Shown here: one piece after another, positions 15,291-19,515 of the stretch | Numbering within the stretch: position 1 is the first letter of the stretch | Layout: every line of letters begins with the position of its first letter | DNA from: Bacteroidota bacterium | GTDB lineage: Bacteria; Bacteroidota; Bacteroidia; Palsa-948 | Direction: 5' to 3' | NCBI GenBank assembly: GCA_016213435.1 | Contig: JACRAL010000179.1 | Span: 1-47,943 of the forward strand | DNA: 47,943 nucleotides | Position numbers and translations under genes: made by a program | Notes under the pieces: generated by a model | Told to the model about the DNA's origin: nothing | The model's database searches: none | Seen by the model: only the letters and a program-made list of their open reading frames with translations

Positions 15291-16658
15291 TCAAGCGTAG
15301 TCAAAGGCTACCTTAACGGAGGGTTCAGAAATTATTTTTTTGGCATCGTTTAAATGTTTATGCCCATTGAGTAATTGAATTGTCGGTTGTTCAACTAATA
15401 ATTTCTCAGCTATAATTTTTACAATCTTTGAATTTACTGCATTGCCTAATGCCTTAAATGCTGTATTGTCGTTGTCGGGTAAGGTAATTCCTTCGAGAGA
15501 TTGAAGTTTTAATCCTTCGTCTTTAGTGATATATCTTTTTTGCCAACCAATTATTGGTATTTGAGTATTAGTGCAAACAAGAGAAGGGAAAAAGTCAACT
15601 TTTTTAATTCTTATTCCCGATGCTCTGAATTGTAAAATGTAATTTTCAATTCTCCGTTCTAAACTACCAACATTCCATTCAAGTTTTTGCCAACTTTGTG
15701 ATGGAAGTTTTGCTATTTCATTCATCACTTCTTGAATGTGTTTTTTGTTTTCGTTGTAAAATTTTCTATTCTGTTCTATATATCGTTTTTTCCAGTCAGG
15801 AAATCTCCTGTTTACTCTTGCATAACTTGGTAATAAAGCAAACTGTTCTTTCTTTTGAAGTCCTTTCAAACTCACACCAAAATTTCCTTTGTATTTTCCA
15901 AGTTCCTTTGCTGTCATTCGAAATGGATGTGTCGTATCATAAGGGTATGTTGCCCCGAATTCCATACTCCAAATTGGAAAACCGGGCAATTTTATTTTTT
16001 GTGGAATACTGTCAATAAACTGTTGCCATAGTTTTAAGCACTCAATATTTTTTTGCGGTAACTTTTTTGCTGTCACTGGATTTTCTTCAATGAACTGGAA
16101 AATATCGTACCCATTTGTTTTGAGTTGATTTATTTCATCAAAACTAAAATGAGAAAGTCTATTTCGAGAACCTACAATAAAAACTCTTTCCCTGTGTTGC
16201 GGAATTCCAAAATCCTGTGGTGAATATATTTCATGGTCAACATCATATTTTATCCTTTTTAATTCCTTCTCCATATACTTCCATGTTTCCTCATTGTCAT
16301 GTTTTTTAATAAAAGGAACGTTTTCAAGAATAAAATATTTGGGCTTTCTATACTCAAGAATTTTTACAATTTCATCAAACAAATTACCTCTTTCTTCATC
16401 CTCTCTTCCTAACTGTTTACCTGCTTTACTGAAAGGTTGACAAGGAAATCCAGCACATAGTATATCGTGATCAGGAATAACTCCAATATTTTCTTTTACA
16501 ATTTTCCTTATGTCGCCATGAGGTTTTATTTTCCACGAATTTTCGTATGCTTTTAGTATAGTCGTATCAATCTCGCTCGCAAAAACGCAAGTATGACCTA
16601 ACTCATGTAATGCTTTATGAAAACCACCGATGCCTGAGAATAAGTCAATAAATCTCAT
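15291..16658 (-). CDS. DNA (cytosine-5) methyltransferase
   Basis: This 455-residue enzyme has the ordered C5-methyltransferase motifs: I DLFSGIGGF (5-13), IV GFPCQPFSKAG with catalytic Cys73, VI LENV (Glu112), VIII QHRERVF (154-160) and X GNAV near 410. The long region between about 165 and 340 should contain the target-recognition domain. It methylates cytosine at position 5 in an unknown recognition sequence. It is the last gene of a tight minus-strand operon, starting 2 bp after the endonuclease-like gene, and would protect host DNA from that protein. Confidence 0.92.
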   Translation of the reverse strand: MRFIDLFSGIGGFHKALHELGHTCVFASEIDTTILKAYENSWKIKPHGDIRKIVKENIGVIPDHDILCAGFPCQPFSKAGKQLGREDEERGNLFDEIVKILEYRKPKYFILENVPFIKKHDNEETWKYMEKELKRIKYDVDHEIYSPQDFGIPQHRERVFIVGSRNRLSHFSFDEINQLKTNGYDIFQFIEENPVTAKKLPQKNIECLKLWQQFIDSIPQKIKLPGFPIWSMEFGATYPYDTTHPFRMTAKELGKYKGNFGVSLKGLQKKEQFALLPSYARVNRRFPDWKKRYIEQNRKFYNENKKHIQEVMNEIAKLPSQSWQKLEWNVGSLERRIENYILQFRASGIRIKKVDFFPSLVCTNTQIPIIGWQKRYITKDEGLKLQSLEGITLPDNDNTAFKALGNAVNSKIVKIIAEKLLVEQPTIQLLNGHKHLNDAKKIISEPSVKVAFDYA

Positions 16659-16660
16659 TG

Positions 16661-17509
16661 TTAATTATTTATTTCTGCTATTCTGTTTTTACACCAATTA
16701 AGTAAAATAGGTCTTAAATCAATATCTTTAAATTCATATTGAAATGTTTGCTTGTATATTCTTGGTCTATCAATTATTAATCCTGCATCAGTAGAGATTT
16801 CGTGCAATTTTTCTTTATCAGAAATAACAACGGGAACAGAAAATCCTTTTATCGGTGATGCAGCAAAATGTATATATTTTTCCCACGCTCTCATATTCAA
16901 ATCCTTGATTTTTCCTTTCCAATTACTACCAGCAGCACACTGAATAAATAAAATAATCTGGCTTGCTCTATTATCTTCCCAATCTTTCCATGCTATTATA
17001 TCTAAATCCCTATCTTTTCTATAAGCAGGAGGCAAGTAATTAAATTTTTCTTTTAAAAAATTGTCAGCAATAGTTTGAATATTTTGTTCGGTTGGAAAAC
17101 CATAAATCAAGGAATTCCCCTTTATGTAATTTTTGATTGCTTCATTAGAAATTCGTTCAAAATACTTGCCCGCTTTTGCTGCTGATGTGGAAGAAGTATT
17201 AGGATTACCTTCCAAGGCATATATTAAGCAAGCTAAGTATTCGGGATACTGTTCCCAATCAATTAGGGAATTTATACTTAGGGGTTGAACTTCTATGGGG
17301 GGATTACTTCCATATAATTCCACCCTGCAAGCAAGAACATTCCAAACGCTGTCAATAAAACCGTCTTCTGGATCGCTGCCTTCGGATGCTTGTATATAAG
17401 AAGCTATTTGGGATTTTGAAATGCTATCCTTTAGATATGTTACATATAATTCAATCCAGTCCGCCACAACTTCAGATGAGGTTGCATCTGGGATATTGTA
17501 TCTAAGCAT
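16661..17509 (-). CDS. Probable PD-(D/E)XK restriction endonuclease partner of the methyltransferase
   Basis: I do not recognise this 282-residue protein as a named family. It has a plausible PD-(D/E)XK-type core: GKYFERISNEAIKNY with Glu118, then DLDIIAW with D168/D170, then ILFIQCAAGSNWKGK with Gln190 about 20 residues later and lysines at 198 and 200. The order (acidic helix, D strand, Q-x-x strand with a nearby lysine) is that of many restriction enzymes, though the usual lysine directly after the Q is an Ala. Its place between the ParB-like gene (3-bp gap) and the methyltransferase (2-bp gap) makes a restriction role likely; this is inference. Confidence 0.55.
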   Translation of the reverse strand: MLRYNIPDATSSEVVADWIELYVTYLKDSISKSQIASYIQASEGSDPEDGFIDSVWNVLACRVELYGSNPPIEVQPLSINSLIDWEQYPEYLACLIYALEGNPNTSSTSAAKAGKYFERISNEAIKNYIKGNSLIYGFPTEQNIQTIADNFLKEKFNYLPPAYRKDRDLDIIAWKDWEDNRASQIILFIQCAAGSNWKGKIKDLNMRAWEKYIHFAASPIKGFSVPVVISDKEKLHEISTDAGLIIDRPRIYKQTFQYEFKDIDLRPILLNWCKNRIAEINN

Positions 17510-17512
17510 AAG

Positions 17513-18667
17513 TTAATTTTCAATGATTTTATCAATAGTTTGAATGGTTTCCTTACATTTGTCAATTTCTGATTGAACACTTTCAGATTTTTTATGGCGA
17601 TGTATGAATTGTAATGATTTTTCAAGATTATCATTTGCTCTTTTCAAATAAGTTGTAAGCAAATTTTCTTCTCCGCCACTTCTATCATAAGCATCTAGTA
17701 ATTTTCCATTTGCTTTTAAATGCTCTAAAGCAATTGGACTTTTAATGATATGGGTCAGGTAATTTGTAATATCCCTACTTTCTTTTAATACTCTTGGTGT
17801 CCGAGTCCCTTCACCATAAAGCCAAGAAAAAAGTAACTTTAGATTTTCTGTTTTTTCTTTGGGAACGGGTTGATCGAAATTTACCTCAGACAAATTAGAC
17901 GGAATTCCTAAAAAATCTTTTATTGCACCTTGTCCGCTTGCAAGCAATAAATATGAAAACTCATTTCTTGCAAGAGAAGTATCTATACCAAATTCATTCT
18001 CCACTTGCTCAACTAATTTGTAACATAAATAAAATTTTCTTGCTGAGTTACTTCTATCTGCAACAATTTGTTGAATTTCCTTTAATGTTTTTCCTTCTTG
18101 AACCATATACGCTACATATCGTGCTTTTGCGTAAGGGTCCCATTTTTTTATTCCTGTAATATGCCTTACTCCTAAATATGGTAATACTTCTTTCCTATTT
18201 GGATACACAATTACAGGTAATTCGGAAATGTCTTTTATTACTTCCGATGAAATTTCAGGAAAAGTTTTAATTTTAAACTTTGTTTGTAATTCAAGGGACA
18301 AGAGGACTTTGATAGTAGCAAGTCGTCTGTTACCTTCCACTACCGTAAATTGAGTTTTAGGTTTACTAATAAAATCAATATACTCTTTGTTTTTTTTCAA
18401 CTTGTCCGCCCTTAAATTTTTAAATTTTTCCGGCAATCCCATTGGAATGGCTACTAATGGTTCTTCATCAAAATAACCATTCTCCCCTATTGAAAGAGCT
18501 AATTCATCAATATCAAAAAATTTATAGAGACAATAAATAATGTCCAGTTCATCTTTTTCTTGAGTTTCTGCTGGTAATCTGGGATTTAATGGGTCAAGAT
18601 GTAAGTTGTCTGGAACAATATTTAGTTGCGGTCTTTTTCTATCTAACCCTGCAATATTTTTAGACAT
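17513..18667 (-). CDS. ParB/Srx-fold protein of a restriction-like operon
   Basis: This 384-residue protein has an N-terminal ParB/sulfiredoxin-type domain: DPLNPRLP (25-32), ELALSIGENGYFDEEPLVA (55-73) and VVEGNRRLATIK (109-120), where the GNRR stretch is the nucleotide/phosphate-binding signature. The remaining ~250 residues are mostly helical and end in a charged coiled-coil-like tail. It is not a chromosome-partition ParB, since there is no ParA and no clear HTH/parS module. It is the first gene of the three-gene operon with the endonuclease-like and methyltransferase genes, so I infer a regulatory or DNA-engaging defence role. Confidence 0.7.
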   Translation of the reverse strand: MSKNIAGLDRKRPQLNIVPDNLHLDPLNPRLPAETQEKDELDIIYCLYKFFDIDELALSIGENGYFDEEPLVAIPMGLPEKFKNLRADKLKKNKEYIDFISKPKTQFTVVEGNRRLATIKVLLSLELQTKFKIKTFPEISSEVIKDISELPVIVYPNRKEVLPYLGVRHITGIKKWDPYAKARYVAYMVQEGKTLKEIQQIVADRSNSARKFYLCYKLVEQVENEFGIDTSLARNEFSYLLLASGQGAIKDFLGIPSNLSEVNFDQPVPKEKTENLKLLFSWLYGEGTRTPRVLKESRDITNYLTHIIKSPIALEHLKANGKLLDAYDRSGGEENLLTTYLKRANDNLEKSLQFIHRHKKSESVQSEIDKCKETIQTIDKIIEN

Positions 18668-18701
18668 AATTTTGTTAAGTTACAATTTAGATTTCAATCT
18701 G

Positions 18702-18735
18702 CAAATATAGTGTTTTGATTTTTGATTTATACAAA
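18702..18735 (-). promoter_or_regulatory. Possible promoter of the ParB-like operon
   Basis: Read on the minus strand: TTTG (18732-18735), a 22-bp spacer, and TATATTTG (18702-18709), 34 bp before the ParB-like start codon. The -7 box fits; the spacer is longer than the usual 19-21. Confidence 0.4.
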
Positions 18736-18775
18736 AATATGTGGGTTGAAAATTTGGCTCTTTTGCACCCCAACT

Positions 18776-18798
18776 GGTGCTCGATTGCATCGAGTGCC
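18776..18798 (+). ncRNA. GC-rich hairpin in the defence-island gap (possible small RNA element)
   Basis: Bases 18776-18785 pair with 18789-18798 in ten consecutive pairs around a TGC triloop. Two of them are G-U wobbles if read as plus-strand RNA and mismatches on the other strand, which favours a plus-strand transcript. It lies in a GC-rich stretch (about 18766-18852) that stands out from AT-rich surroundings. There is no match to a tRNA or any RNA family I can recognise. Confidence 0.25.
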
Positions 18799-18859
18799 CA
18801 CGCCAACCGCCCAGGCTAATCGGAGTCTCATGGCACCGCTTCCTGAGTTTGTCCTAATG

Positions 18860-18931
18860 CAAATATACACTTTTATAGAATATTAATCCATAAAAAGATT
18901 TTTAAACAGGATCAATTTTTTTTAAAAAATA
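18860..18931 (-). repeat. ~70-bp direct repeat, copy A
   Basis: It starts CAAATATACACTTTTATAGA and ends around CAGGATCAATTTTTTTT. It is closely similar to copy B at 19631-19703, with a few substitutions and short gaps. Both copies contain CAAATATA, which on the minus strand reads TATATTTG, a promoter-like box. Copy A lies between the toxin gene and the ParB-like operon. Confidence 0.8.
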
Positions 18932-18971
18932 AAAACAGGTAAGCAAATGCATCTCTCGTTAAGCGTAGTTA

Positions 18972-19316
18972 TTAAATCTTTATTGAAAGAACTTTTGCCA
19001 GGCCAATTTTGATTTCATCAATTAATGATTCATTTAACTGTCCTATTCGCCTGATAAATCTTTTCTCAGAAACCGAACGAACCTGAAAACAGTCTGCCCC
19101 TGATTTTTTTGAAAGCCCATTGGTTGATGCAGGTTCAATGCTAACCATCCATGGAGCAATTTCATATCTGTCTTTCCAATCTGTTAATGGAACTATTATT
19201 TTTAAAGGCAACTTCCCGAGTGCGCTGTCATTAACTATAACCGCAGGTCTTTTCTTTTGAATCTCTGCTCCAACTGTAGGATCAAGATTGATTAACCAAA
19301 TTTCACCTTGCTTCAT
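18972..19316 (-). CDS. PemK/MazF-type toxin (endoribonuclease)
   Basis: This 114-residue protein begins MKQGEIWLINLDPTVGAEI and continues KKRPAVIVND, the standard MazF/PemK N-terminus with its catalytic-loop Arg. IIVPLTDW and the C-terminal VRSVSEKRFIRRIG strand also match. MazF toxins cut mRNA at short sequences. I start it at ATG 19316; an ATG six codons upstream would extend it into the antitoxin region without family support. It overlaps the end of the preceding antitoxin gene by 14 bp, the usual TA arrangement, and lies between the two direct repeats. Confidence 0.9.
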   Translation of the reverse strand: MKQGEIWLINLDPTVGAEIQKKRPAVIVNDSALGKLPLKIIVPLTDWKDRYEIAPWMVSIEPASTNGLSKKSGADCFQVRSVSEKRFIRRIGQLNESLIDEIKIGLAKVLSIKI

Positions 19317-19515
19317 AAAAACTTTCAAAATCAAGATTAGTGAATATAGTTAATTCCTTATCATTTTTATAGTCTGGATATAATACATTCGCTGCATACT
19401 TCAATTCATTGTTTTCTTCCTTCTCCCGTATGGTGTGAAGCGCTTTTTCAATTAAAAAAATACGTTTCTGAAAAGGGAGCCTTTCTATTTCTTTTAATAT
19501 TTCTATTGTTCTCAT
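19303..19515 (-). CDS. Cognate antitoxin of the PemK/MazF-type toxin
   Basis: This 70-residue acidic and helical protein starts MRTIEILKEIERLPFQKRIFLIEKAL, so the N-terminal part probably dimerises and the C-terminal acidic part (NDKELTIFTNLDFESFYEAR) would cap the toxin. It is not a MazE AbrB-fold protein; similar short helical partners accompany PemK toxins in Bacteroidota. It is assigned by position (first gene, overlapping the toxin start) and size rather than by a family motif. Confidence 0.75.
   Translation of the reverse strand: MRTIEILKEIERLPFQKRIFLIEKALHTIREKEENNELKYAANVLYPDYKNDKELTIFTNLDFESFYEAR

Follow-up and report, generated by a model that had tools for sequence, protein, structure and literature searches.

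A ParB-like protein, a predicted PD-(D/E)XK nuclease and an interchangeable methyltransferase form a putative restriction-modification system

In a 47,943-nucleotide contig of a Bacteroidota bacterium of the Palsa-948 lineage (JACRAL010000179.1 of assembly GCA_016213435.1; the whole stretch is called the window here), three minus-strand genes lie between positions 15291 and 18667. They encode a ParB-like protein (gene 1, 384 amino acids, 17513-18667), a putative nuclease of no named family (gene 2, 282 amino acids, 16661-17509), and a C5-cytosine DNA methyltransferase (gene 3, 455 amino acids, 15291-16658). We read this cassette as a restriction-modification system in which a two-subunit restriction enzyme, made up of a ParB-fold switch and a winged-helix/PD-(D/E)XK nuclease, would be accompanied by an interchangeable protective methyltransferase, and we put the probability of this reading at roughly 0.7. 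That the cassette functions in restriction-modification is likely, and joint action of genes 1 and 2 is very likely. The original prediction, made from the letters of the DNA, had noted three minus-strand genes with gaps of 3 bp (17510-17512) and 2 bp (16659-16660), and the open reading frame (ORF) coordinates agree, with all three frames intact. It had proposed a restriction-modification variant with a ParB-fold accessory protein, which is now supported by the predicted nuclease fold of gene 2 and by co-occurrence of the genes over about 20 phyla.

Genes 1 and 2 are inherited as a pair

To place the cassette among its relatives, 84,980 species genomes were scanned by tblastn with a gene 1 alignment. 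Of the 447 relatives found, the best-scoring 80 loci were kept, and the pairing counts given here cover these 80 and not all 447; near-duplicates among them are L042/L045 and the actinobacterial group around L052. In 79/80 loci, the gene immediately 3' of gene 1 is a gene 2 homologue, mostly at a spacing of -17 to +17 bp, and in the single exception, L027, the sequence stops 745 nt past gene 1. As gene 1 was the sole query of the scan, the pairing was not built into it, although the gene 2 profile was derived from adjacent pairs in other genomes. In a search from the gene 2 side, relatives found within the phylum of the window likewise adjoin gene 1 where the contig permits. A neighborhood search for the trio had been named beforehand as a test, with genes never occurring together as the adverse outcome; instead, the arrangement is far beyond chance.

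The two proteins also diverge together. Over 79 sequences, pairwise identity in gene 1 is correlated with that in gene 2 (rho 0.68), against a maximum of 0.14 in 500 permutations, and the corresponding value for gene 1 and the C5 methyltransferase is 0.27, below the permutations' 0.35. Mapped onto the gene 1 tree, the methyltransferase classes require 10 or more changes, compared with a mean of 35.9 when classes are shuffled. C5-linked genes fall on one side of a branch, D12 and N4/N6 classes alternate repeatedly, and exchange is mostly between these two non-C5 classes. Together, the identity correlations and the class changes on the tree indicate that genes 1 and 2 form a stable module whose methyltransferase is exchanged.

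These patterns bear on an alternative in which gene 2 by itself would be a type II restriction enzyme of the ordinary kind, with the ParB-like protein in a DNA-binding regulatory or accessory role only. The predicted structure of gene 2 has a complete PD-(D/E)XK core together with a winged-helix-like region, which would fit such an arrangement. However, some lineages should then have dropped or replaced so simple a regulator, just as they have exchanged the methyltransferase, whereas the gene 1-gene 2 pairing is essentially absolute and both proteins co-diverge, and we consider this alternative quite improbable.

The methyltransferase is complete and belongs to different classes

Gene 3 matches PF00145 (E 4.5e-65 over residues 1-420), TIGR00675 (8e-65), and M.HhaI in the PDB (5.9e-42). 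The earlier description of a complete methyltransferase holds, with motifs PCQ at 72-74, ENV at 112-114, QHRER at 154-158, and GNAV at 405-408. Across the loci, three unrelated methyltransferase classes recur as neighbors: C5, D12 N6-adenine (PF02086), and N4/N6 (PF01555). A census with profile hidden Markov models built from the neighbor clusters, with a limit of 3.5 kb, gives at least one methyltransferase in 74/80 loci (D12 only in 27, C5 only in 26, N4/N6 only in 18, two classes in 3) and exactly one class in 71/80; for L077, the D12 assignment was made from a fragment at a contig end (29 bits). Six of the 80 have none within this distance; among these, L027 and L049 reach contig ends, and in L016 and L087 a C5 gene lies beyond the limit.

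Eight loci carry genes of Vsr endonuclease type (the member tested matches PF03852), several adjoining the C5 gene. Vsr is the usual companion of 5-methylcytosine methylation and is expected where this base is made. In L016 and L017, the cassette's C5 family occurs together with genes for a GHKL ATPase, a Z1 protein, and a DUF4420 protein; GHKL-Z1-DUF4420 with a methyltransferase is an established kind of restriction system. The C5 methyltransferase family is what the cassette has in common with such systems, but the effectors differ, and in these two loci the ParB-nuclease pair is additional.

Individual loci show further variation. In L007 (1402-2316), a stop interrupts the gene 2 homologue between intact gene 1 and methyltransferase genes, and further, weak gene 2 fragments are found in L010 and L015; the nuclease may have been lost and the methyltransferase kept in these cases. 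A type ISP/IIG restriction enzyme-methyltransferase gene adjoins the cassette in L041 (5997-9428), suggesting a small defense island. An unverified fecal phage contig, L141 (MT835579.1, 2574-11453), carries two convergent ParB-nuclease pairs together with a C5 methyltransferase and Vsr.

Gene 2 has the predicted core of a PD-(D/E)XK nuclease

Structure prediction of the middle protein, likewise named in advance as a test, gave a confident model with a PD-(D/E)XK-type core. The AlphaFold2 model (69 sequences; predicted local distance difference test [pLDDT] 93.7, predicted template modeling score 0.91) has core elements in the order alpha-beta-beta-beta-alpha-beta: helix 108-129, which carries E118; strand 132-135; strand 171-175, just after D170; strand 185-191, with Q190; helices 197-200, with K200, and 206-212; and strand 220-224. 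From short alignments with MarR and cullin WHB domains, the N-terminal region (residues ~12-81) is probably winged-helix-like. The best PDB fold matches by Foldseek are restriction enzymes, namely MspJI (probability 0.91), HindIII (0.84), and SdaI, and among weak matches in a viral fold library some are Mrr-like or restriction-endonuclease proteins.

By sequence, the protein belongs to no recognized family, as the original prediction had it: there is no meaningful family match in Pfam, NCBIfam, PADLOC, or PDB sequences. Its relatives have no match in Pfam, nor as a profile against the PDB, and no relative was found in a scan of viral contigs. Among the 81 members of the gene 2 family, D170 is present in 80, Q190 in 74, and E118 in 67, and R62, R248, and R250 are near-invariant. 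A lysine of active-site type stands at position 200 in 69 sequences, at position 192 (the QxK position) in 10, and at both in 1; none has neither, and one row is gapped. A catalytic lysine that changes position in this way is a known feature of the PD-(D/E)XK superfamily. The catalytic residues first proposed stand in part, as E118, D170, Q190, and K200 are conserved, while D168 is mostly Gly, with D166 as the second conserved Asp, and K198 is absent from the conserved columns. The model and these residues make gene 2 very probably a nuclease.

In having adjoining methyltransferase and PD-(D/E)XK genes, the cassette is like a type II restriction-modification system with a C5 methyltransferase. 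It is unlike one in having an additional, near-obligate subunit of ParB type and a nuclease family that the libraries used do not describe.

Gene 1 resembles ParB in both of its conserved domains

The AlphaFold2 model of gene 1 (pLDDT 93.7) matches structures of Noc, KorB, and ParB (Foldseek probability 1.00, best E 1.6e-4), some of them solved with analogues of cytidine triphosphate (CTP) or with cytidine diphosphate. Its N-terminal domain is of nucleotide-binding type, with N28-P-R30, EGNRR at 111-115, and RHITG at 168-172, and it is followed by a helix-turn-helix at residues ~195-226 and a helical C-terminal part. In profile comparison with the chromosomal ParB of the window's relatives, gene 1 matches over residues 9-227 (91% probability, E 8.9e-7), a span that takes in both the nucleotide domain and the helix-turn-helix. 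Informative family matches came from PADLOC only (PDC-M38A, 6.7e-16; PD-Lambda-5_A, 1.9e-15, over the ParB domain). EGNRR is invariant among 87 gene 1 sequences, and G112-N-R-R aligns with the GERR of ParB, whose paired arginines are reported to be essential for nucleotide binding (PMC10770331).

The ParB/Srx domain with GNRR that had been predicted is thus present, with the refinement that Foldseek and the profile comparison also find the ParB helix-turn-helix. As this second element is there too, gene 1 is closer to real ParB, Noc, and KorB than to a ParB/Srx fold alone, and on model and sequence evidence it is a true ParB relative with a nucleotide-binding domain and a helix-turn-helix. The gene 1 N domain with its GxRR motif and the helix-turn-helix are features of the CTP-switch proteins ParB, Noc, KorB, and VirB; in contrast to these, the cassette has no ParA partner, GNRR in place of GERR, NPR in place of QPR, and a putative nuclease as partner. 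The lack of ParA had been remarked on before, and indeed a ParA-like gene was found neither beside gene 1 nor among the recurrent neighbor families. A role for gene 1 as a partition protein was rejected for this reason. One RefSeq plasmid record labels gene 1 'ParB/RepB/Spo0J family partition protein' and gene 2 'hypothetical protein.'

GmrSD and SspE also couple a nuclease to a nucleotide-binding domain of the ParB superfamily, which raises the alternative that genes 1 and 2 are a type IV-like, modification-dependent effector. Like these DUF262 proteins, the pair would respond to a mark, and the methyltransferase would either place that mark or be an independent neighbor. The ParB-superfamily domain of GmrSD and SspE is indeed an NTPase paired with a nuclease, SspE being switched by hydrolysis of guanosine triphosphate (GTP) (PMC13251355, PMC12373910), and four of 75 gene 1 relatives match GmrSD_N weakly. 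However, GmrSD and SspE have DUF262 with a DGQQR motif, an HNH/DUF1524 nuclease, and modified DNA as target, whereas the cassette has ParB proper, a PD-(D/E)XK protein whose predicted fold is not HNH, and a methyltransferase alongside. The structure of gene 1 matches ParB, including the helix-turn-helix, and not DUF262, and no match to PF03235 (DUF262) was found in the window's gene 1 protein with Pfam. Moreover, a type IV-like effector needs no cognate methyltransferase, yet nearly all loci have one, and unrelated classes have replaced each other. We therefore regard this alternative as unlikely.

Proposed mechanism and points against it

In the restriction-modification system that we favor, gene 3 would methylate cytosine at a site in the host and so mark its own DNA, and genes 1 and 2 would jointly act as the restriction enzyme. 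With its helix-turn-helix, gene 1 would contact DNA, and its GxRR pocket would bind a nucleotide, by analogy CTP; its part would be that of a sensor or clamp. Gene 2, as a metal-dependent nuclease, would be recruited or licensed by gene 1 on unmethylated foreign DNA. Cleavage, phage defense, CTP gating, protection by methylation, and complex formation are thus what we infer for the cassette. Nucleotide-dependent gating by gene 1 is somewhat probable, and SspE, a ParB-superfamily protein in which GTP hydrolysis is coupled to nuclease licensing (PMC13251355), may be taken as a working precedent for a nucleotide-gated nuclease, as an analogy with no homology claimed.

That gene 1 is a sliding CTP clamp is doubtful. 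Equally tentative is the fuller form of this idea, in which a CTP-dependent ParB-type clamp gates restriction: gene 1 would load at a target site, close on CTP, slide along unmethylated DNA, and deliver or activate the PD-(D/E)XK subunit.

Several observations weigh against the restriction-modification reading. The Foldseek matches of gene 2 are weak (best E 6.2e-3, none <0.001; whole-chain TM score 0.27), and for this reason the fold assignment rests on topology and residues. E118 is replaced by Gln in 14/81 family members and Q190 by His in 5/81. No methyltransferase was seen near the pair in L032 and L090 despite ample flank. Differing methyltransferase classes stand beside similar ParB proteins, which would complicate any assignment of target specificity. 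Finally, Asn replaces both of the ParB residues that we take to be those of CTP hydrolysis, in part from the names of mutants in matched PDB entries (Q52A, E93A): N28 stands for the Gln of QPR and N113 for the Glu of GERR. Because of these replacements, gene 1 may turn over CTP slowly or not at all. VirB, with just one of the two hydrolysis residues retained, binds CTP and hydrolyzes it weakly (PMC10770331), so nucleotide binding without fast turnover is plausible for gene 1.

Relation to PD-lambda-5 and HEPN-ParB-methylase operons

The nearest tested system is PD-lambda-5, an Escherichia coli prophage defense that was experimentally selected as an anti-phage system (Vassallo et al. 2022, PMC9519451). 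In both, a ParB-like protein is encoded with a DNA methyltransferase; sister loci encode a D12 methyltransferase that matches PD-Lambda-5_B (E as low as 5.8e-116), and PD-Lambda-5_A matches the long ParB-like proteins of those loci. Gene 1 is shorter, however, and matches part of the PD-Lambda-5_A profile, the profiles being mostly 430-500 positions long. The cassette further differs in having a separate PD-(D/E)XK protein without a PADLOC match and, in the window, a C5 methyltransferase instead of a D12 enzyme (PD-Lambda-5_B). Genes matching PD-Lambda-5_A and PD-Lambda-5_B coexist beside the gene 1-gene 2 pair in L052, L055, and L111.

Eight actinobacterial loci (L052, L064, L068, L069, L071, L074, L079, and L080) have a fourth gene, encoding a ParB-like protein of ~500 amino acids, upstream of the D12 methyltransferase. 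In L052 this gene is PD-Lambda-5_A-like, and each of these eight clusters has two different ParB proteins.

PD-lambda-5, which has a ParB-like component in common with the cassette and a D12 component in common with sister loci, has been described as a compact combination of restriction-modification and abortive infection (PMC9519451). By this analogy, genes 1 and 2 could be an abortive-infection module that kills the cell upon disturbed methylation or phage interference, without clearing phage DNA. Yet the effector has a DNase-type fold with restriction-enzyme relatives, and no RNase or other toxin is indicated inside the conserved trio; we give this alternative very little credence.

Operons of the HEPN-ParB-methylase kind (MAE_28990 type), noted in 2013 by Anantharaman et al. 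(PMC3710099), are like the cassette in gene content, with ParB-like and DNA methyltransferase genes in one operon. Their effector is a HEPN domain, whereas here it is a PD-(D/E)XK protein. ParB-like genes in operons with methyltransferases are thus already known, from these operons and from PD-lambda-5. A description of a ParB and PD-(D/E)XK pair was not found in the open-access literature, a scope that excludes subscription papers, REBASE, and supplementary tables, and priority for the pair is not certain.

Genomic surroundings of the cassette

The cassette has a GC content of 32.5%, compared with 39.0% for the remainder of the window, and it was not found in six same-genus genomes searched; both observations are consistent with horizontal acquisition. 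No close relative of a flanking gene was found among the sampled genomes, and consequently no empty site is shown.

Just upstream of the cassette, also on the minus strand, a MazF/PemK-type toxin gene (PF02452, 1.4e-26) lies within 18972-19515, and a 70-amino-acid ORF that overlaps it (19303-19515) probably encodes the antitoxin. The intergenic stretch upstream of gene 1 (18668-18971), of which no second copy was found in the genome, contains a GC-rich segment and a perfect palindrome, CTCGAT-N3-ATCGAG, at 18780-18794. The palindrome was rejected as an operator or recognition site, as there is no conserved palindrome upstream of relatives and its frequency in the window does not exceed chance. 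A structured RNA upstream of gene 1 was likewise rejected, with no Rfam match and folding no better than that of shuffled sequences.

Implications

Together, genes 1 and 2 would be a widespread two-gene restriction module, present in 79 loci, with a nuclease family that none of the libraries used recognizes. The module would link ParB-type nucleotide switches to DNA restriction. If the tentative CTP-clamp mechanism is true, CTP, and not ATP or GTP, would be a restriction cofactor, and ParB clamps would have a role in immunity. As the two subunits are kept while the methyltransferase class is swapped, the location of target specificity is directly testable in this family.

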